A stretch of DNA of 21,267 nucleotides. Source: Actinomycetes bacterium. GTDB lineage: Bacteria; Actinomycetota; Actinomycetes; Propionibacteriales; Propionibacteriaceae. Made by a program: the position numbers and the translations under genes. Below, piece after piece: positions 7,760 to 21,267 of the stretch (position 1 is the stretch's first letter; every line of letters starts with the position of its first letter). The notes under the pieces were generated by a model. It was not told the DNA's origin. It saw only the letters and a list, made by a program, of their open reading frames with translations, and searched no databases. The stretch lies in the NCBI GenBank assembly GCA_029778515.1, contig JAKOQD010000103.1, forward strand, positions 1 through 21,267, read 5' to 3'.

Positions 7760-10477
7760 GTGGCAACTGAGCACAAGTCCAGGCTCGTCATCGTCGAGTC
7801 CCCGACCAAGGCGGTCAGCCTGGCCAAGTTCCTCGGGTCGGGCTTCGTGGTCGAGTCCAGCCGCGGCCACGTCCGCGACCTGCCGACCGGTGCCGCCGAG
7901 GTGCCGGCGAAGTACAAGGGCGAGAAGTGGGCCCGCACCGGCGTCAACATCGCCGCCGACTTCGAGCCGCTGTACGTCGTCGCGGCCGACAAGAAGGGCA
8001 CGATCCGCGACCTCAAGGCCAAGCTGAAGAACGCGGACGAACTCCTGCTCGCCACCGATGAGGACCGCGAGGGCGAGGCGATCGCCTGGCACCTGCTCGA
8101 CGAGCTGAAGCCGAAGGTGCCGGTCAAGCGGATGGTGTTCCACGAGATCACGCCCGAGGCGATCCACGCCGCAGTCGAGAACACCCGCGAGCTCGACACC
8201 GACCTGGTGGACGCGCAGGAGACCCGGCGCATCCTCGACCGGCTTTACGGCTACGAAGTCTCGCCGGTGCTCTGGAAGAAGGTCATGCCGAAGCTGTCGG
8301 CGGGCCGCGTGCAGTCGGTGGCGACCCGTCTGGTCGTTGATCGCGAGCGCGAACGGATTGCGTTCCGCGCTGCCGCCTACGCCGATATCGAGGCGGTCCT
8401 GGACGCCGGTGTGGACGCTGATCCGCGCACCTTCACCGCCAAGCTCACCGCATTCGGATCGCGCCGGATCGCCCAGGGCCGCGACTTCGACTCGGTCGGC
8501 AAGCTCGCCGGCAAGGACCTGCTGCAGCTCGGCATCGATGCGGCGCAGCGCCTCGCGTCCGACCTTGCCAAGGCCGGTTTCTCGGTCGGCAGCGTGGAGG
8601 CGAAGGGCTACACCCGCAAGCCGTACGCGCCCTTCCGCACCACCACCCTGCAGCAGGAAGCTGGCCGCAAACTCGGCTTCACCGCGCAGCGCACGATGTC
8701 GGTGGCCCAGGAACTCTACGAACGCGGCTTCATCACCTATATGCGAACCGACTCGGTGACGCTCTCGAGCACTGCTATCGAAGCCGCGCGCGCCCAGGTC
8801 AAGGAGCTGTACGGCGGCAAGTACCTGCCCGCGCAGCCGCGGGTGTACGCGTCCAAGGTGAAGAGCGCGCAGGAGGCGCACGAAGCCATTCGCCCCGCTG
8901 GCGCGACGTTCCGCACGCCGCAGCAGACCGGCCTGCACGGTGACCAGTTCCGGCTCTACGAGTTGATTTGGAAGCGCACGATCGCGTCCCAGATGAAGGA
9001 CGCCGAGGGCGAGACGGTCAGCGTCCGCATCGGCGCGACCCTGCCCGAGCGTGTGTCAGTGACCGACGCGGCCACCGGCGAGGTGGTCGATTCGGGCCGC
9101 GCGACCTTCAACGCGTCCGGTCGCACGATCACCTTCCTTGGCTTCCTGAAGGCCTACGTCGAGTCGGTCGACGACGATTCGTCCACCGACGACGCGCAGG
9201 CCCGGCTGCCGCAACTCGCGTCCGGGCAGCGCCTGGAAGCGGAGACGATCAGCGCGCAAGCCCACGAGACCAAGCCGCCGGCCCGCTACACCGAACCGTC
9301 CCTGGTGGCGAAGCTGGAGGAGTTGAACATCGGGCGTCCCTCGACGTATGCGGCGATCATCCGCACGATCACGTCGCGGGACTACGTGTTCAAGAAGGGT
9401 TCGGCGCTGGTGCCGACCTGGCTGGCGTTCGCGGTCACGCGGCTGCTGGAGGAGCACTTCGCGAAGCTGGTCGACTACGCGTTCACCGCAGAGATGGAAC
9501 AGACCCTTGACGAGATCGCCGCCGGCGATGCCGCCCGGGTCGCGGTGCTCAAGGACTTCTACTTCGGCCCTGAAGGCTCGGCCCACGAGGGTCTGGAGAA
9601 GCTGGTCACCGAACTCGGCGAGATCGACGCGCGTAAGCTGTCTACCTTCAACCTCGGCGACGATGTGGACGTGCGGGTCGGACGCTACGGCACCTATGTC
9701 GAGGATTCCGAGGGGCGCCGAGCCAACATCGATCCCGACCTGGCGCCGGACGCCCTGACGCTCGACTTCGCCCGTGAACTGCTGGCCAAGCCGGCCATCG
9801 AGGAGCGGACGATCGGCATCGATCCGGCCTCGGGTAACGCGATCGTCGCGAAGAACGGACGCTTCGGTCCGTACGTCACTGAAGTACTTCCCGAGGACGC
9901 GCCGAAGTCAGCGAAGCCGCGGACCGGATCGCTGTTCGCGTCCATGAGCACCGAGACTGTGACGTTGGAGCAGGCGCTGCAGTTGCTCAGCCTGCCGCGC
10001 CTGGTGGGCAAGGCCGCGGACGGTGAGGAGATCACCGCGCAGAACGGGCGCTACGGTCCCTACCTGAAGAAGGGGACGGACTCGCGCTCGCTGACCAGTG
10101 AAGACCAGATCTTCGAGATCACCCTCGCTGATGCGGAGGCGATCTACGCCCAGCCGAAGACCCGTGGACGGGCGGCCGCGGCGTCCGGGCCGTTGCGCGA
10201 ACTGGGTGCCGACCCGGTTAGCGGCAAGCCGGTGGTGGTCAAAGACGGCCGATTTGGTCCGTATGTCACCGACGGCGAGTTCAACGCGACCCTGCGCCGC
10301 ACCGATTCGGTCGAGGCCATGACGCTGGAGCGGGCCGCCGAACTGCTGGCCGAGAAGCGCGCAAAGGGACCGGCGCCGAAGCGCACCACCGCACGCCGCA
10401 CCACGACCACCAAGAAGGCCACGACCACCAAGAAGCCGGCCACCAAGAAGACCACCACCACCAAGCCGGCCAAGTAG
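7760..10477 (+). CDS. topA: DNA topoisomerase I (type IA)
   Basis: A 905-residue enzyme that relaxes negative supercoils by single-strand passage. The TOPRIM domain opens with LVIVESPTKAVSLAKFLG and has the Mg-binding acidic cluster in LATDEDREGEAIAWHLL. The catalytic tyrosine is Tyr327 in GFITYMRTDS. LSAGRVQSVATRLV is the usual core motif, and NIGRPSTYAAII the strand-passage domain motif. The C-terminus has no zinc-finger cysteines but several GRYGxYV/GRFGPYV repeats, then a Lys/Thr-rich tail (TTKKATTTKKPATKK), the arrangement of actinobacterial TopA. GTG 7760 follows AGGAAG at suitable spacing; the alternative GTG 7718 would add 14 residues and overlaps the candidate -10 box. It is followed by a long palindrome and then tmk-holB. 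Confidence 0.97.
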   Translation: MATEHKSRLVIVESPTKAVSLAKFLGSGFVVESSRGHVRDLPTGAAEVPAKYKGEKWARTGVNIAADFEPLYVVAADKKGTIRDLKAKLKNADELLLATDEDREGEAIAWHLLDELKPKVPVKRMVFHEITPEAIHAAVENTRELDTDLVDAQETRRILDRLYGYEVSPVLWKKVMPKLSAGRVQSVATRLVVDRERERIAFRAAAYADIEAVLDAGVDADPRTFTAKLTAFGSRRIAQGRDFDSVGKLAGKDLLQLGIDAAQRLASDLAKAGFSVGSVEAKGYTRKPYAPFRTTTLQQEAGRKLGFTAQRTMSVAQELYERGFITYMRTDSVTLSSTAIEAARAQVKELYGGKYLPAQPRVYASKVKSAQEAHEAIRPAGATFRTPQQTGLHGDQFRLYELIWKRTIASQMKDAEGETVSVRIGATLPERVSVTDAATGEVVDSGRATFNASGRTITFLGFLKAYVESVDDDSSTDDAQARLPQLASGQRLEAETISAQAHETKPPARYTEPSLVAKLEELNIGRPSTYAAIIRTITSRDYVFKKGSALVPTWLAFAVTRLLEEHFAKLVDYAFTAEMEQTLDEIAAGDAARVAVLKDFYFGPEGSAHEGLEKLVTELGEIDARKLSTFNLGDDVDVRVGRYGTYVEDSEGRRANIDPDLAPDALTLDFARELLAKPAIEERTIGIDPASGNAIVAKNGRFGPYVTEVLPEDAPKSAKPRTGSLFASMSTETVTLEQALQLLSLPRLVGKAADGEEITAQNGRYGPYLKKGTDSRSLTSEDQIFEITLADAEAIYAQPKTRGRAAAASGPLRELGADPVSGKPVVVKDGRFGPYVTDGEFNATLRRTDSVEAMTLERAAELLAEKRAKGPAPKRTTARRTTTTKKATTTKKPATKKTTTTKPAK

Positions 10478-12499: not shown

Positions 12500-12613
12500 G
12501 CAACCTGATCAGGGACTTCGCAGAGCGCGCCCTGCGCCGTGTCGCTCACGGCCGTCCGCGTCGACGGATGCAAGCATGGACACGAGAGTGTGCCCTTGTT
12601 GAGAGGACTTCCT

Positions 12614-13915
12614 GTGACCGAGCCGCGCGATTTCGAGCCCGTAGTCGATGCCGACGTGCCCGCACCGGACGCAACTCCGGTCAGCGACACCCCTGAACCT
12701 GAGCTGAGCACCTGGCGCCCGGTGCAGCCGGCCGAGCCCGCAGCCGTGGACGAGACGCCCGCCCAGCCCGAGGCATCCGCTCAGTTCGAGACTCCCGCTC
12801 AGGCGGAACCGTTCGCCGGGCCGGAACCGACGATCGAGGCCCCGGCAGTCGCGGAGCCGGTGCTGGAGTCCCAGCCGCCGGCGGCCCAACCTGAGGTGGT
12901 CCCTGCGCCACTGGATGAGCCCGAGTCGGTCTCGGTGCCCGAGCCCGAGCCGGTCGCCACGCCCGAGCCTGAGCCGGTCGCCACGCCCGAGCCTGAGCCG
13001 GTCGCCACGCCCGAGCCTGAGCCGGCACCTGTTCCCGAGCCGGTAGCAGTCCCCGAACCAGCGCCGACGCAAGCTCGAACTCCCGAGCCGCAGCCCGTGG
13101 TGGCGCCCGAGCCCGAGTTGGTGATCGACAGCGAGCCGACCACCCAGGCGGAGACCGTGGCTATCGTGCCGGCCGAGCCGGAGACCGCAGAGACTGTGGC
13201 CATTCGTCCGGTTGCCGGGCCGCCGATGGTCGAACCGACGATCGCGCTGCCCAACGAACCGGCACCGACGGCAGCCGTGCCCACCGAGTCGATCTTCCGT
13301 CCGGTGAGCCCCTCGCAGGAGCCGACCACGGTCGAGCAACTGTCGGACGAGGAGGCCAAGCTGGCCGCCGAACGCGCCGCCCGCCGTGACGCCCGCGTGG
13401 CCGCGCTTGCCGCGACTGCGCCGATGGCGATCGCCGCACCGGCGCCGGTGATCGTCCACAAGCGCACCAACGACAAGTTCTGGGGTTCGCTCGGCCTGTT
13501 CCTGCTGCGACTGGTGGTGGCGGTGATCTTCGCGATTCGCGGGCTGAACATCGTCACCGACATCCCGGCCGCGCAGGCCACCTTCGCCAAGACGATCCTG
13601 CCGGAGCCGCAGCTCATGGCGATCGTCACCGGGGTCGCGTCCCTGCTGATCGCCCTGTCACTCGTGCTCGGACTGCTGACCCGTCTGGCCGGCCTGGGCA
13701 TCGCGCTGATCGCCGGCGGGGTGCTGGCCTTCGTGTTGTGGGGGCCGTGGAGCCCGTTCGTCGCCGGTCAGCCGGGCTTCCTCGGTGAGTTCGAGTTGCT
13801 GCTCGCCGCGGTCGGCCTGCTCTTCCTGCTGATCGGTGGGGGCGGCTGGAGCCTGGATCGCAGCTTCCGTGCCGGTCGCGAGCGGGACAAGGCCGAACGC
13901 AACGCTGCCAGTTAG
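12614..13915 (+). CDS. DoxX-like membrane protein with long Pro/Glu-rich N-terminal region
   Basis: A 433-residue protein. GTG 12614 has GAGAGG at 7-nt spacing; the longer frame from 12539 has no ribosome site. Residues 1-250 are low complexity, rich in Pro, Glu, Ala and Val, with repeats PEPEPVAT (about 108-137). A charged helix follows ([24 protein letters not shown], split by sense into acid and Arg parts). The C-terminal 145 residues hold about four membrane helices beginning at [14 protein letters not shown] (289), then [34 protein letters not shown] and [19 protein letters not shown]. This is the DoxX/DoxD-like four-helix pattern. Function is unknown; some family members take part in quinone or thiol chemistry. 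The acidic tail probably lies in the cytoplasm. Confidence 0.7.
12937..13025 (+). repeat. 24-bp tandem repeat, about 3.7 copies, encoding PEPEPVAT
   Basis: Copies at 12937-12960, 12961-12984 and 12985-13008 differ only by C/T at one position, and a partial fourth copy ends at 13025. The repeat stays in frame within the DoxX-like gene, so length changes would not break the protein. Confidence 0.9.
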
Positions 13916-16637: not shown

Positions 16638-16710
16638 GCCACCTTAGCTCAGTCGGTAGAGCGACGCTCTCGTAAAGCGTAGGTCGCGGGTTCGATTCCC
16701 GCAGGTGGCT
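16638..16710 (+). tRNA. tRNA-Thr (anticodon CGT)
   Basis: A 73-nt cloverleaf. The acceptor stem GCCACCT (16638-16644) pairs with AGGTGGC (16703-16709), with discriminator T at 16710. The D arm is AGCTCAGTCGGTAGAGC. The anticodon stem ACGCT/AGCGT encloses loop CTCGTAA with anticodon CGT at 16671-16673, reading ACG. The T arm is GCGGG-TTCGATT-CCCGC. CCA is not encoded. Confidence 0.96.
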
Positions 16711-16811
16711 CCGTCGTCGTGGGGAGTAAGCCCTGCAACCAATGGCCCAGCTCTCCCGGTGGGCCTCCAGATGTGGTGAGGTATGCGTTGGCTGAACCGA
16801 ACGCTGCGCCG

Positions 16812-18446
16812 ATGACCGGCACTGGCACCACTGAGCACGTCTCCGCGCTCGCCCCATTCGGCAACCGGGCGTTCAAGTGGCTCTGGATTGGTGTGGTGAT
16901 CAGCAGCGTCGGCGCGTGGGCGCAGATGGTCGGGGCGCAGTGGTTGTTCATCAGCGACCCGAACGCCGCTACGATCGTCGCACTCGTCCAGACTGCGTCC
17001 GTGCTGCCGATGCTGCTCTTCGGACTCGCCGCAGGGGCGCTGGCCGACGCGTTCGATCGGCGCCGGCTGCTGCTCTTCGTCCAGCTCTACTCGGGCACTG
17101 TCGCGATCATCCTCGCCGTGCTCACCTGGCTCGACCGGATGCCCCCGCTGCTCCTGCTCGCCTTCACCTTCCTGATCGGCGCCGGCACCGCCATGCAGGT
17201 GCCCACCTGGCAGCCGCTGATCACCGAGCTGGTGCCGCGCTCCCAGATCGCGCAGGCCACCCGCCTCGACATGGTCAGCGTCAACGTCGCGCGGGCGGTT
17301 GGCCCGGCGATAGCCGGGCTCATCATCGCGGCTTGGGGCGTCCCGCTGGTCTTCCTGCTCACCGCGGTCAGCGCCCTGTTCCTGATCGGCGCATTGCTGG
17401 CCTGGCGACGTCCGGACGAGTCCCCGCGCGCCCGCGAGCGCTTCCTGCCGGCCCTTCGCGCCGGCGGACGCTACGTGCGGCACGAGCCGGTAGTGCGGCT
17501 GATCCTGGGTCGGCTCGCCGTGTTCGTGATCCCCGGCACGGCCATGTGGACGCTGCTGCCGCTGATCGCGAATCGCCAGCTCGGCCTCGGTGCGAGCGGT
17601 TACGGCCTGCTGTTCGCCTTCCTCGGCTTGGGCGCGGTTGCTGCGGCGCTGTCGCTCGGACGGGTTACCAAGCACTTCTCCGGTAACCAGGTGCTCAGTT
17701 GGAGCGCCGTCCTGTTCGCTGGCGCCTTCGCGCTCACGATGGTCGTTCCGGGACTGTTCGCTGCGGTCCCGTTACTGGCGATCCTCGGCTTCACCTGGAC
17801 GGCAACCATCTCCACCTTGAACGCCGAGCTCCAGCTCTACCTGCCCGGGTGGGTGCGCGCCCGGGCCCTCGCGGTCTACCTGATGGTCTTCGCCGGTGTG
17901 CAGGCCGTCGCGGCCCCGGTCTGGGGACTGGTCGCGCAGCATGTGAGCCTGTCCGCCGCGGTCTGGGCGGCGGCCGCACTACTGGCTGCGGGGGGCCTCG
18001 CCGGCTTGGCCTGGCACTTCCCGGAGAGCTCCCAGCTGGACCGGTCGCCGCTGGTCTACTGGGGTGATGCCCAGGTGCTCTACTCGCCCGAGCCGGACGC
18101 TGGGCCGGTGCAGGTGATGGTCGAGTACGTCGTGCCTTCCGACCGGGTGGCCGACTGGCGGGCCGCGATGGAGGACCTGCGGCGCTCGCGGATGCGCAGT
18201 GGTGCGATGCGCTGGGAGCTCTACCGGGTAGGGGAGCGCGCTGACACCTACCTGGAGATCTTCGCGGTGCCGTCCTGGCAGGAACACCTGCACCAGCACG
18301 AGCAGCGACTCACCGCTCAGGACCAGGAGATCGAGCTGCGGGCCTTCGGCTTCGCGACCAACCCGCCGATCGGAACCCACCTGTTGCCGCCGCCGGACGG
18401 CCCGGACGAGGACATCGGCTCAACGGGGCCGGCGGGCGGCAAATGA
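16812..18446 (+). CDS. MFS transporter (EntS/DHA3-like) with C-terminal soluble domain
   Basis: A protein of about 544 residues from ATG 16812. This start is chosen because the family N-terminus (SALAPFGNRAFKWLWIGVVIS) follows directly; no strong ribosome site is seen, and the frame is open back to GTG 16719, just after the tRNA. About 12 membrane helices span residues 22-402, with the motif A-like GALADAFDRRRLLL (75-88) and PTWQPLITELVPRSQIAQATRLDMVSVNVARA (in sense, 131-162), as in the MFS_3/enterobactin-exporter group. Residues about 430-530 form a soluble ferredoxin-like segment resembling antibiotic-biosynthesis-monooxygenase domains, which is recurrent in this subfamily. Substrate unknown: drug or siderophore export is possible. 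Its stop codon overlaps the first base of the downstream CstR-like operator. Confidence 0.85.
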   Translation: MTGTGTTEHVSALAPFGNRAFKWLWIGVVISSVGAWAQMVGAQWLFISDPNAATIVALVQTASVLPMLLFGLAAGALADAFDRRRLLLFVQLYSGTVAIILAVLTWLDRMPPLLLLAFTFLIGAGTAMQVPTWQPLITELVPRSQIAQATRLDMVSVNVARAVGPAIAGLIIAAWGVPLVFLLTAVSALFLIGALLAWRRPDESPRARERFLPALRAGGRYVRHEPVVRLILGRLAVFVIPGTAMWTLLPLIANRQLGLGASGYGLLFAFLGLGAVAAALSLGRVTKHFSGNQVLSWSAVLFAGAFALTMVVPGLFAAVPLLAILGFTWTATISTLNAELQLYLPGWVRARALAVYLMVFAGVQAVAAPVWGLVAQHVSLSAAVWAAAALLAAGGLAGLAWHFPESSQLDRSPLVYWGDAQVLYSPEPDAGPVQVMVEYVVPSDRVADWRAAMEDLRRSRMRSGAMRWELYRVGERADTYLEIFAVPSWQEHLHQHEQRLTAQDQEIELRAFGFATNPPIGTHLLPPPDGPDEDIGSTGPAGGK

Positions 18447-18464
18447 TACCCTTGGGGGTATAAC
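18446..18464 (+). promoter_or_regulatory. CsoR/CstR-type operator overlapping the -10 of the thioredoxin-repressor operon
   Basis: ATACCCTTGGGGGTAT (18446-18461) is an inverted repeat ATACCC-N4-GGGTAT, the GC-tract palindrome typical for CsoR-family repressors. The -10 TATAAC (18459-18464) starts inside its right half, so bound repressor would block polymerase. No good -35 is seen. The same layout recurs upstream of the sqr-like gene. Confidence 0.75.
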
Positions 18465-18482
18465 TCTTGAGGGGATTCTGGC

Positions 18483-18860
18483 ATGGCAACGACTGAACTG
18501 ACGGCGGCGGTTTTCGAGCAGACGATCGCTGAGAACGACATCGTACTGGTCGACTTCTGGGCAGCCTGGTGTGGCCCGTGTCGCATGTTCGCCCCCGTAT
18601 TCGAGGCCGCTTCCGAGCAGCACCCTGACCTGGTCTTCGGCAAGGTCGACACCGAGACCGAACGTGACCTGGCGGCCGCAGCGAGGATCATGTCGATCCC
18701 GACGCTGATGGTCTTCCGCGAAGGCATTCTGGTCTACGCCCAGCCTGGGGCCATGCCCGCGCCGGCGCTGGAGGAGCTGATCAGTGCCGTCCGCGCGGCC
18801 GACATGGACGCGGTACGCGCCGAACTCGATGAGCAAAACTCGGAAGCCAGCAATGCCTGA
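18483..18860 (+). CDS. Thioredoxin
   Basis: A 125-residue single-domain thioredoxin. GAGGGGA lies 7 bases before ATG 18483. The active site is FWAAWCGPCRM (Cys30, Cys33), the cis-proline Pro73 is in SIPTL, and KVDTE is the conserved strand. It has about 15 extra residues at the C-terminus (acidic, DMDAVRAELDEQNSEASNA in sense) beyond the fold. It is the first gene after the CstR-like operator and overlaps the repressor gene by 8 bases, so it belongs to the sulfur-stress operon. The likely role is reduction of protein or low-molecular-weight persulfides or disulfides formed during sulfide stress; this is inferred from the context. Confidence 0.93.
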   Translation: MATTELTAAVFEQTIAENDIVLVDFWAAWCGPCRMFAPVFEAASEQHPDLVFGKVDTETERDLAAAARIMSIPTLMVFREGILVYAQPGAMPAPALEELISAVRAADMDAVRAELDEQNSEASNA

Positions 18861-19182
18861 AGAACCGATCCATGCCGGTACAGTGGAATCCACTGAACGG
18901 GTGGAAGGCAATTTCGTAATGCAGCTCGAAGAAAGCGATCTGGTTGGAGTGCTCAAGCGGCTTAAGCGAGCTCAGGGCCAAATCGGCGGTATCATTCGAA
19001 TGATTGAGGAAGGCCGCGATTGCAAGGAGGTCGTCACCCAGCTCGCCGCCGTGTCGAAGGCGCTCGATCGGGCTGGGTTCGCGGTCATCGCGGTCGGGCT
19101 GCGGCAGTGCATCACCGCCGATCCGGAAGGCACCGGAGTCGACACTTCGTCCCTGGAAAAGCTGTTCCTCTCCCTGGCCTAA
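18853..19182 (+). CDS. CsoR-family repressor, CstR-like (persulfide-sensor type)
   Basis: A protein of 109 residues from ATG 18853, which overlaps the thioredoxin stop by 8 bases. An internal ATG at 18919 with GGTGGAAGG upstream would give 87 residues, the usual family length, and cannot be excluded. The all-helical DUF156/CsoR fold is clear: LKRLKRAQGQIGGIIRMIEEGRDCKEV (in sense, 34-60) and VTQLAAVSKALDRAGFAV. Cys57 and Cys86 are 29 residues apart, the same spacing as CsoR Cys36-Cys65 and CstR Cys31-Cys60. The position four before Cys86, His in copper sensors, is Gly82, so copper binding of the CsoR kind is unlikely and dithiol persulfide/polysulfide sensing is favoured. It probably represses its own operon and the convergent sqr-like operon. 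Confidence 0.88.
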   Translation: MPEEPIHAGTVESTERVEGNFVMQLEESDLVGVLKRLKRAQGQIGGIIRMIEEGRDCKEVVTQLAAVSKALDRAGFAVIAVGLRQCITADPEGTGVDTSSLEKLFLSLA

Positions 19183-19192
19183 TCGTCAAGCG

Positions 19193-19209
19193 AACCGGCG
19201 TCCGGTTTT
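19193..19209 (+). terminator. Intrinsic terminator of the thioredoxin-repressor operon
   Basis: AACCGG (19193-19198) and CCGGTT (19202-19207) pair around CGT, and the stem runs into TTTTAATT, 11 bases after the repressor stop. It is short but has the classic stem plus T-run form. Confidence 0.5.
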
Positions 19210-19291
19210 AATTGAGAAGCGGCGCCGGCGATTTGCTTTCGATTGCGGTGTCGACTAGCGTACGCCCCTGACTTTTCGGGGTCGCCAGACT

Positions 19292-19334
19292 TGCATTTAG
19301 CGGACGGCCCGATAAGCGCCGTCCGCTAAATGCA
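19292..19334. terminator. Perfect 17-bp hairpin between the convergent operons
   Basis: The arms 19292-19308 (TGCATTTAGCGGACGGC) and 19318-19334 are exact inverse complements around a 9-nt loop. AT-rich ends flank a GC-rich stem, and on the plus strand TTTAAT follows. It lies 5 bases beyond the stop of the minus-strand small gene and probably terminates both operons. Confidence 0.7.
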
Positions 19335-19339
19335 TTTAA

Positions 19340-19507
19340 TCAGTGGTGGCCCTTCGCAACCATCCGCATGATCCGCAGGTCAAAGGCGATGAAGCGCAGG
19401 AACTGACCGAGCAGGTTCTGCCGGCCGCGCAGCGTCTTCGCGGTCGGCAGCGGCGACTTGGACAGATCGGCGACCGGCTCGGGAGCGGGCAGGTTCGACT
19501 CAGTCAT
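19340..19507 (-). CDS. Small protein of 55 residues in an operon with the sqr-like gene
   Basis: ATG at 19507 lies 2 bases beyond the sqr-like stop (minus strand) and has GGAG at 5-nt spacing, placed inside the end of the preceding gene; the stop is at 19340-19342. The protein begins MTESNLPAPEPVADLSKSP, a loose Pro-rich segment of about 23 residues. A basic amphipathic or hydrophobic helix follows (TLRGRQNLLGQFLRF, then IAFDLRIMRMV), and it ends in AKGHH. No cysteines, signal peptide or clear membrane helix are present. The tight coupling, good ribosome site and following terminator support a real gene. Function unknown: a membrane-surface partner or small subunit of the flavoprotein would fit the composition, but this is inference. 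Confidence 0.72.
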   Translation of the reverse strand: MTESNLPAPEPVADLSKSPLPTAKTLRGRQNLLGQFLRFIAFDLRIMRMVAKGHH

Positions 19508-19509
19508 GA

Positions 19510-20964
19510 TCACTCCGGAATCATTTGCCAGCCCGGCAGGGCCTTGGCCTTGTAGAGGAACAGGTAGTGGAGCATCAGCTTCACCCAGTGGCCGTGCAGG
19601 CCGAGTTCGCCGCGGGTCTCCTTCTCGTCCCGGCCGGTGGCGAAGCGTTGGTAGTCAGGCACCACTGGCAGCATCGTCATCGCGGCAGCCGAGCCCTTGG
19701 TCAACCCCGTCCCTGCGGACGCGACGCAGGCTGCGCCCATCCGCGCCATCGACGCGGTGTGCGCCGGGGCGTCCGCGCCGTGCCGGATGCGGTCGGCGAT
19801 CGTCTTGGCGACGGTCTTGCCCATTACGCCGGATGGCATGCCGGTGCGTGGCGGCGAGGGCGCGATCATCGTCCCGTTCGGGGTCTTCAGCGGCTTCGAG
19901 ATCTGGTGCGGCGGTGCGAACGCAATCCCGACCGCCCACAGGTTGTCGTACCCGGGAGCGGCGTAGGTGGTCGGCCAGTCCTCGGCGCGCCATTCCGCAT
20001 AGGGCTTGGCGGTGTAGTCGGCGTCCACCTTCATGAAGCCGCTGGGTGCGAAGAGTTCGCTGGTGATGTCGCTGCCATCGGGTGCGTAGGCCTTCAGTGG
20101 CACCCCGCCGAACGGCGGGATGAGCATCGCGAAGTCGAAGTCGAGAGTGTACGTGGCGCCGTCCAGGGTCTCGTAGTGGATCAGCCCGGCCTCCACCTTC
20201 TGCACGTGCGCACCGAGGATGACCTCGACGCCGCGTTCGCGGAACAGAGAACCCGTCCACAGTTCGCTGGTGGTCTGGAAACCCTGCTGGTCGAAGACCA
20301 TCCCGTCGACGCCGAAGTCGCCCAGCGCTGCCTCGTTGGTCAGGTAGACCACGCGGGCCAGGTCGCGGACGCCGGCTTCGCGCAACTCGTGGTCGACGTT
20401 GAAGACGTACTCGAACGCCGCTCCCTCGCAGGTGCAGGTGCCGTGACCCATGCCCACCACGAGGGTCTGCGGCTTGCCGCTCTTGAGCACCGCGATCACT
20501 TCGCGCAGCTTCTCGGCCGCCTCCATGGCGTGGTCGGCAGTGCAGACCGACACCGTGTGTCCGTCCGGTCCCATGCCCTCGGTGGCTTCGAAGCGGAGCT
20601 TCGGACCGGTGGCGTTGATCAGGTAGTCGTAGCGCAACTGGTCGGCCTGACCGGACTTTTCCTTCGACGTGTACTCGATGTCCACCGCGCCACGGCCGTC
20701 GTGCGTGTCGCCGGCAGGGCGGATCGCTACTGCCTTCGCCTGGCGGAACTGGATGCCCTTTCGCTGGTAGACCGGCGCGAGCGGGAAGACGACGTCCTTC
20801 TTGCTCATCTCGCCGACGCCCACCCAGATGTTGGACGGGATCCAGTTCCACTGCGAGTTCGGCGAAACCACGGTGATGGTGTGGTTGCGACCGAGCATTC
20901 TGCGTAGGTGCAGGGCTGCGGTGTGGCCGGACACTCCGGCTCCTAGGATGACTACCTCTGCCAT
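19510..20964 (-). CDS. sqr: Sulfide:quinone oxidoreductase-like FAD flavoprotein
   Basis: A 484-residue two-dinucleotide-binding-domain flavoprotein. AAGGAG lies 5 bases before ATG 20964. VVILGAGVSGHTAALHL (4-20) is the FAD Rossmann motif, LINATGPKLRF (115-125) is the ATG motif, and LVVGMGHGTCTCEGAAFEY (168-186) is the second dinucleotide domain carrying Cys177 and Cys179. NLWAVGIAFAPPHQISKP (341-358) replaces the usual GD motif, and SGVMGKTVAKTIADRI follows. The C-terminus HWVKLMLHYLFLYKAKALPGW (459-479) is the amphipathic membrane-anchoring helix seen in SQR. Other cysteines are Cys141 and Cys413; no cysteine lies near residue 350. Expected reaction: sulfide to sulfane sulfur with electrons to quinone at the inner membrane face. 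A related NADH- or thiol-linked oxidoreductase is the alternative. It is first in the operon with the 55-residue protein. Confidence 0.8.
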   Translation of the reverse strand: MAEVVILGAGVSGHTAALHLRRMLGRNHTITVVSPNSQWNWIPSNIWVGVGEMSKKDVVFPLAPVYQRKGIQFRQAKAVAIRPAGDTHDGRGAVDIEYTSKEKSGQADQLRYDYLINATGPKLRFEATEGMGPDGHTVSVCTADHAMEAAEKLREVIAVLKSGKPQTLVVGMGHGTCTCEGAAFEYVFNVDHELREAGVRDLARVVYLTNEAALGDFGVDGMVFDQQGFQTTSELWTGSLFRERGVEVILGAHVQKVEAGLIHYETLDGATYTLDFDFAMLIPPFGGVPLKAYAPDGSDITSELFAPSGFMKVDADYTAKPYAEWRAEDWPTTYAAPGYDNLWAVGIAFAPPHQISKPLKTPNGTMIAPSPPRTGMPSGVMGKTVAKTIADRIRHGADAPAHTASMARMGAACVASAGTGLTKGSAAAMTMLPVVPDYQRFATGRDEKETRGELGLHGHWVKLMLHYLFLYKAKALPGWQMIPE

Positions 20965-21002
20965 TGGTGCTCCTTCTGCGGCTGCGTTGCCGACGTCTTC
21001 AG

Positions 21003-21021
21003 CCTATACGGGTTGGGGTAT
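21003..21021 (-). promoter_or_regulatory. Second CstR-type operator and -10 box, upstream of the sqr-like gene
   Basis: On the minus strand this reads ATACCCCAACCCGTATAGG. The left half ATACCC is identical to that at 18446 and the right half CCGTAT is degenerate. The -10 TATAGG begins at the same operator position as TATAAC does in the other promoter. Transcription would start about 32 bases before the sqr-like ATG. Confidence 0.65.
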
Positions 21022-21083
21022 CGACACGGGCTTCTTCAGAAGTTTCAGTGGCTGATGCGGACGCCTCGATCTGAACGCCAGCC

Positions 21084-21145
21084 TTAGCGCTCGAGCGCCA
21101 GCACCAGTGGCTAGGGCTCGATGCTTGCGGCTAGCGCTCGGCGCC
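21084..21145. repeat. Three imperfect direct repeats (YTAGSGCTCGxxGC)
   Basis: TTAGCGCTCGAGCGCC (21084), CTAGGGCTCGATGC (21111) and CTAGCGCTCGGCGCC (21131) lie in the gap between the divergent sqr-like gene and the last gene. The first contains the perfect palindrome GCGCTCGAGCGC (21087-21098). They could be regulator sites of the partial downstream gene. Confidence 0.35.
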
Positions 21146-21223
21146 GCCCGGCTAAGTCTTCCAGTTCAATGACTCCGTGGGGTCCGGCTTGAGGCATGCT
21201 TGGACGACGGAATAGGAGTTCAG

Positions 21224-21267
21224 ATGCGTCGAGTGCTGATGATGTTGGTGGCGGTCCTGGTGGCGCC
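21224..21267 (+). CDS. Start of a probably exported protein (3' end outside window)
   Basis: ATG 21224 follows AGGAG with a short gap (ATAGGAGTTCAG-ATG). The 14 visible residues, MRRVLMMLVAVLVA, are two arginines followed by a hydrophobic run, the beginning of a signal peptide or membrane helix. Nothing more can be said about its function. Confidence 0.6.
   Translation, partial: MRRVLMMLVAVLVA

Follow-up and report, generated by a model that had tools for sequence, protein, structure and literature searches.

A single persulfide-responsive repressor very probably controls both of two convergent operons found in a stretch of actinobacterial DNA, and we take such a repressor to be the explanation of the whole locus. 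The stretch (hereafter, the window) comprises 21,267 nucleotides from an Actinomycetes bacterium of the Propionibacteriaceae (contig JAKOQD010000103.1). In it, a thioredoxin gene (trx) and a gene of the CsoR repressor family (csoR) run rightward; a gene for a flavoprotein resembling sulfide:quinone reductase (SQR; gene, sqr) and a small open reading frame (ORF) of 55 codons run leftward toward them. One operator shape, ATACC-N6-GGTAT, stands before trx-csoR and before sqr and the small ORF. We conclude that the locus is a real, well-conserved regulatory unit, known in kind and new in its arrangement.

Across all 21,267 bases of the window, ATACC-N6-GGTAT was matched just twice when up to one mismatch was allowed: the match at 18446 is exact, and the one at 21006 differs at one base. 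Shuffled versions of the window held a mean of 0.04 such matches, and two or more occurred in none of 100 shuffles. An earlier, sequence-only reading of this DNA had pointed to a near-identical element at each operon and had described the positions and the convergent gene order; all of this held. That reading had also staked its case on conservation of the operators in orthologous loci, and they are indeed conserved. We scanned reference genomes around relatives of the repressor and kept the best 80 of at least 523 confirmed loci. Thioredoxin matches of at least 100 bits in these loci were pooled with that of the window and with one at locus L149, included because it lies at a site. An exact operator was present within 200 bp upstream in 27 of these 43 matches (25 of 41 when L149 and the window are omitted), and a reversed control pattern in none. 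Among 11 sqr matches (window included), seven had an exact site and none had the control; the sqr genes of L011, L013 and the window each had a site with one mismatch. The convergent four-gene plan was repeated in seven of the 80 loci (L001, L003, L004, L007, L009, L011 and L014). At L165 and L167, all four genes (trx, sqr, the small ORF and csoR) share one orientation; exact sites lie close to trx and ahead of csoR.

Other arrangements of these elements were also encountered. In L006, from Micropruina glycogenica, sqr is split into two pieces whose frames differ, and the operator site is further upstream; the pieces (L006:6385-7333) match 321 of 484 residues and have an intact operator on one side and the small ORF on the other. 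Near position 7921 of the same locus, two cysteine-only repressor genes diverge from a single shared exact operator. In 16 of the 80 loci, three operator-like sites (up to one mismatch each) precede the repressor gene in a row, in steps of about 21 bp, or two helical turns. These loci derive mostly from Arthrobacter and its relatives (L038, L042, L043, L045, L046, L048, L049, L053, L057, L060, L062, L071, L074, L077, L079 and L080).

What would such a repressor sense? The window's protein matches PF02583 with 79.6 bits, against a cut-off of 22.8. In an alignment to the solved copper CsoR 4m1p, its two cysteines, which are 29 residues apart, fall at the positions of the copper-ligand cysteines, and glycine replaces the histidine between them. 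Both cysteines are invariant among 23 close relatives, and the glycine is found in at least 90% of them. Judged by these residues (Cys/Gly/Cys rather than the Cys/His/Cys ligands of a Cu(I) sensor), the repressor is a cysteine-only, or CstR-type, member of the CsoR family, as the sequence-only reading had proposed; its operators, moreover, stand at sulfide and persulfide genes and are conserved in orthologues. The histidine is likewise absent from the best solved match, 7mq1, in the alignment. The depositors name 7mq1 a copper-sensing repressor; we take it to be the pneumococcal CstR. More distant cysteine-only regulators (Cys-Arg-Cys and Cys-Thr-Cys; L217, L219 and L237) are also located behind N6 sites.

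The distance between half-sites largely separated the two sensor types among the operators that were found. The genomes of ten relatives contain 24 PF02583 genes, of which 12 were taken as copper-type; all 12, when fetched, encoded Cys-His-Cys. TACC-N7-GGTA was present upstream of the gene at 11 of these 12 loci and the N6 form at none, whereas both operators in the window are N6. At the 80 CstR-type loci, an N6 site occurred within 700 bp upstream in 70 and an N7 site in none. A wider test drew on PF02583 genes from 60 Actinomycetota genomes (45 with matches; 79 rows), 71 of which were classed by script after four rows of G004 (already used) and four partial matches had been set aside. Within 400 bp upstream of the 46 Cys-His-Cys genes, N7 was found in 23 cases and N6 in none; for the 19 genes encoding Cys-x-Cys without histidine, the respective counts were one (L232, a contrary case) and nine, with neither form at the other nine. 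The six remaining genes had neither. The association between spacer and sensor class is strong (Fisher's exact p 2.6e-7, not corrected for kinship), but roughly half of each class has no N6 or N7 site, and thus the rule describes only the sites found. Cysteine-only regulators apparently lie behind TACC-N6-GGTA and copper CsoRs behind TACC-N7-GGTA, a distinction that appears to be new; our literature search returned no report of it or of this gene arrangement, though we stop short of calling the rule unpublished.

Published observations bear on this rule. The operator of a copper CsoR has been given as TAC-X9-GTA (PMC3902906); the authors who reported ATACCn6GGTAT for ScCsoR of Streptomyces coelicolor stressed its likeness to copper operators (PMC7533328); and DNA binding by TTHA1953, a CsoR-family regulator from Thermus thermophilus, was strongly sensitive to spacer length (PMC10318464). 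We lean, by a narrow margin, toward a broader proposal: in Actinomycetota, the spacer would act as a specificity code (N6 for sulfur, N7 for copper) that separates the regulons of paralogs, and the N6 regulon would join SQR and its 55-residue partner to recycling by thioredoxin and enzymes of the CoA-disulfide reductase (CoADR) type. If this is true, one base of spacing would be a simple answer to the question of how such similar repressors avoid each other's operators.

The sequence-only reading had called the regulon self-contained. This description fails for the relatives, because their operators also stand at many other genes: the ten genomes have 77 exact sites (5–13 per genome), many at further sulfur genes, and the reversed control pattern occurred once in one genome and not at all in the other nine. 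We read 76 of the 77 site regions (one of G002 was left out), matched ORF representatives to Pfam and NCBIfam, and counted the genomes in which a given gene lay no more than 150 bp from an exact site. Since the families were chosen for their position at sites and the search was confined to the fetched regions, the counts are descriptive and do not constitute a test. A CoADR-like flavoprotein with a rhodanese domain was at an operator in all ten genomes, thioredoxin in nine (as a thioredoxin-rhodanese fusion in G008 and at 112 bp in G010), a protein of 55–61 residues with the motif CGKTTWxGCGQH in nine, SQR in seven, a protein of about 170 residues without a family match in six, and a rhodanese in five. 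Thioredoxin reductase was counted in three, always 90–92 bp downstream of the site, and an MBL-fold-plus-rhodanese protein resembling persulfide dioxygenase (PDO) also in three, two of them only 34–36% identical to the representative. CcdA-like genes were found in two genomes, and SLAC1, TauE, DsbA-like and YgaP-like genes once each. The name thioredoxin reductase is backed by a score above the cut-off (378 vs. 343 bits); the CoADR match falls under its own (425 vs. 579 bits) and the PDO-like protein had no match above cut-off, hence the suffix “-like” for both.

These gene sets bear on another suggestion of the sequence-only reading, namely, that thioredoxin fills the role that rhodaneses or persulfide dioxygenases have elsewhere. 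This suggestion found no support: relatives with an operator at trx also have the CoADR-rhodanese gene behind the same operator, and some have a rhodanese or PDO-like gene there as well. Judging from gene content, thioredoxin in the relatives is an addition to rhodanese-type enzymes rather than a replacement for them. At L149:1797-2498 (minus strand), a thioredoxin-rhodanese fusion lies directly behind an exact operator, which ties this type of thioredoxin to sulfur transfer. The cysteine-rich protein of 55–61 residues (MCxPVxCxxCGKTTWxGCGQHV...FGR) has no Pfam or NCBIfam match; it was observed in L106, L110, L114, L120, L128, L135, L006 and others.

The flavoprotein and the 55-residue protein appear as a pair. 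The top solved matches of the former are sulfide:quinone reductases (E 2.8e-39 over residues 2-324). A profile built from 18 long-type sequences (window included) and four shorter ones, 22 in all, matched 3hyv with E 9.8e-70, and Cys141, Cys179 and Cys413 each pair with a cysteine of that structure; we presume that these are the catalytic cysteines of SQR. On sequence, then, the protein is an SQR-like flavoprotein that retains all three SQR cysteines. Of 296 genomes drawn across the class, nine (G004 included) had the long SQR type and four a shorter type, 34–37% identical. The 55-residue protein follows sqr in all nine and was not seen beside the four shorter-type genes; the same order holds at all 10 loci of the first scan with this SQR type (L006 is G004). 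When the protein itself was searched for in 296 similarly drawn genomes, the nine clear matches were all at those sqr places, and three others were weak (E >1e-4). When about 1.5 kb on each side was inspected, an exact site preceded sqr, or the trx-led cluster it belongs to, in eight of the nine genomes with the long type. The C-terminal segment of the 55-residue protein is conserved, basic and hydrophobic; the protein may bind the membrane or SQR.

We propose the following mechanism. The cysteine-only repressor, a CstR-type protein like ScCsoR, would bind ATACC-N6-GGTAT at both promoters and hold down trx-csoR and sqr with the small ORF. A rise in persulfide or polysulfide would modify the cysteine pair, the repressor would leave the DNA, and both operons would be transcribed; polysulfide has been reported to release ScCsoR (PMC7533328). 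SQR would then oxidize sulfide to sulfane sulfur at the quinone pool, and thioredoxin would reduce persulfides and, together with the CoADR-like enzyme, take sulfane sulfur off thiols. S. coelicolor released more H2S when thioredoxins were overexpressed (PMC9952706), and a CoA-persulfide reductase is under CstR control in Enterococcus faecalis (PMC9405070). If the window organism resembles its relatives, the CoADR-rhodanese, thioredoxin reductase, rhodaneses and a PDO-like enzyme would be behind the same operator, from which the copper CsoR would be kept away by the extra base in the spacer of its own operator. Inducing reductive and oxidative enzymes together may look futile, yet it would clear persulfides from proteins and small molecules while SQR consumes the freed sulfide.

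Three other explanations were weighed. That the two sites are unrelated palindromes is scarcely credible. The looser pattern of the sequence-only reading, ATACCC-N4-GGGTAT, does speak for chance, as it is no more frequent in the window than in shuffles (three matches at up to three mismatches vs. 2.26 expected, a count that alone is not significant). However, no shuffle reached two matches to the tighter shape, and the sites are kept at orthologous promoters where the control is absent; we therefore rejected a chance origin. Nor is it at all likely that the protein is an ordinary Cu(I) CsoR at copper operators, a reading that draws on the shared Pfam family, on the name given by the depositors of the best solved match, and on the lowest-E NCBIfam match, the copper sensor RicR, though this is far under its cut-off (43.7 vs. 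175 bits). The copper reading was rejected on the missing histidine and on the N7 operators of the separate Cys-His-Cys paralogs that the ten relatives possess; further, no copper gene was recognized at the N6 sites examined. An improbable alternative, though a less remote one, is that the same cysteines sense electrophiles, disulfide or peroxide generally, with sulfur genes only a part of the targets. The thioredoxin, thioredoxin reductase, DsbA-like and CcdA-like genes at some relatives' sites would fit general thiol redox control, and nitroxyl also cross-links CstR of Staphylococcus aureus (PMC5480029). The SQR, rhodanese and PDO-like targets, in contrast, point to sulfane sulfur, as does the ScCsoR precedent.

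Several points weigh against a persulfide-responsive repressor of both operons. TTHA1953, another cysteine-dependent CsoR-family regulator of sulfur genes, is reported to have given no response to NaHS (PMC10318464). Operator 2 deviates from the common shape at one base. Sixteen of the 43 thioredoxin matches, many of them in Arthrobacter-type loci, have no exact site, and neither does L168, one of the nine genomes with the long SQR, within about 1.5 kb. Some sites in the relatives adjoin genes with no evident sulfur role (e.g., L140, L142 and L148); these may be due to chance. Finally, the sites beyond the window and the copper paralogs come from relatives' genomes, and carrying them over to the window organism is an extrapolation.

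Features of the locus in the window. Positions are those of the window; residue numbers are those of the protein named.
Feature	Positions	Strand	Description
Operator 1	18446..18461	+	ATACCCTTGGGGGTAT; ATACC-N6-GGTAT without mismatch; lies 21 bases upstream of the trx ATG
Thioredoxin (trx)	18483..18860	+	125 residues; WCGPC at residues 29-33; PF00085 and TIGR01068 above cut-off
CsoR-family repressor, longest ORF from ATG	18853..19182	+	109 residues; overlaps the trx stop; Cys57, Cys86; PF02583 above cut-off
CsoR-family repressor, likelier extent	18919..19182	+	Inferred; 87 residues from ATGCAGCTC; preceded by GGAAGG at 18903-18908
Inverted repeat	19293..19333		Perfect, 16 bp; between the stops of the convergent operons; fold z -6.0; possible two-way terminator
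55-residue protein	19340..19507	-	Directly after sqr; conserved C-terminal segment (FDLRIMRMVAKGHH in the window); 13 homologues
SQR-like flavoprotein (sqr)	19510..20964	-	484 residues; Cys141, Cys177, Cys179, Cys413; solved SQRs are the best matches
Operator 2	21006..21021	-	ATACCCCAACCCGTAT (minus strand); ATACC-N6-GGTAT with one mismatch; lies 41 bases upstream of the sqr ATG

The thioredoxin assignment follows from its domain and WCGPC motif. For the repressor, visual comparison of 12 aligned loci showed the inner start and a purine-rich, GAGGG-like stretch before it to be conserved in most of them, and we infer that translation begins at the inner ATG, at 18919 in the window. An operator-like element with one mismatch, ATAC-N8-GTATGAT, spans the N-terminus of the longer ORF in four of those loci (L001, L002, L003 and L010), where csoR probably has a promoter of its own; the window's counterpart has decayed (TACAGT at 18879). 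The fold z of the inverted repeat was computed over 66 bases around it, and a terminator scan, which requires a T run, did not list it.

The first base of operator 1 is the final base of the stop codon of the upstream MFS gene; a tRNA-Thr (CGT) gene lies just upstream of the latter, at 16638-16712. The sequence-only reading had each operator overlapping a -10 box. Both strings, TATAAC and TATAGG, do occur, but what follows GGTAT varies among orthologous promoters, and we rejected these boxes for want of conservation; a sigma-70 consensus scan of 18300-21267 found no promoter. A TGA is joined directly to the operator (TGATACCC) in all ten trx promoters inspected, from the window and nine relatives, and could serve as an extended -10. 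This stays a suggestion because in five of the ten the TGA is the stop codon of an upstream open frame at least 155 codons long. Elsewhere in the window (12539-13915), a DoxX-domain protein is encoded, with no operator at its gene; DoxX relatives occur in thiosulfate metabolism in some organisms.

How does this locus compare with known systems? The sequence-only reading named CstR of the Firmicutes as its precedent. An actinobacterial one was already in print: the kind of regulon is known, because the published sulfane-sulfur repressor ScCsoR uses the same element (PMC7533328). ScCsoR is likewise an actinobacterial CsoR-family protein with cysteines 29 residues apart (Cys37/Cys66), and the operator, the release by polysulfide and the sulfur-gene targets are all described for it. 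Its targets, though, are PDO, a rhodanese, a sulfite transporter and itself; its authors contrast it with SQR circuits, and neither thioredoxin nor the 55-residue protein is among the targets described in the available text (PMC7533328). CstR of S. aureus and E. faecalis is also a cysteine-only persulfide sensor, repressing sqr in the former and CoA-persulfide reductase and rhodaneses in the latter; it differs in belonging to Firmicutes, in its likely direct target in S. aureus being a single operon (cst), and in that thioredoxin is not among the targets described, as far as those accounts go (PMC5480029, PMC9405070). The copper CsoR of S. lividans shares the protein family and nearly the same half-sites (TACC/GGTA) but senses Cu(I), and its half-sites are one base further apart than here (PMC3902906). 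TTHA1953 is a regulator of sulfur genes that is redox-sensitive via cysteine; its operator is TACNNTACNNNNGTANNGTA, and the sulfur oxidation genes under its control are distant from its own gene (PMC10318464). In S. coelicolor, sulfane sulfur also induces thioredoxins, which reduce it to H2S, through AdpA, an unrelated regulator; the portion of that report available mentions no CsoR-family repressor on trx (PMC9952706). Set beside these systems, the locus would bring thioredoxin, thioredoxin reductase, CoADR-rhodanese and SQR into the persulfide-sensor regulon of actinobacteria, and its short, genome-searchable operator would predict sulfur-stress genes, including those for two small uncharacterized proteins.

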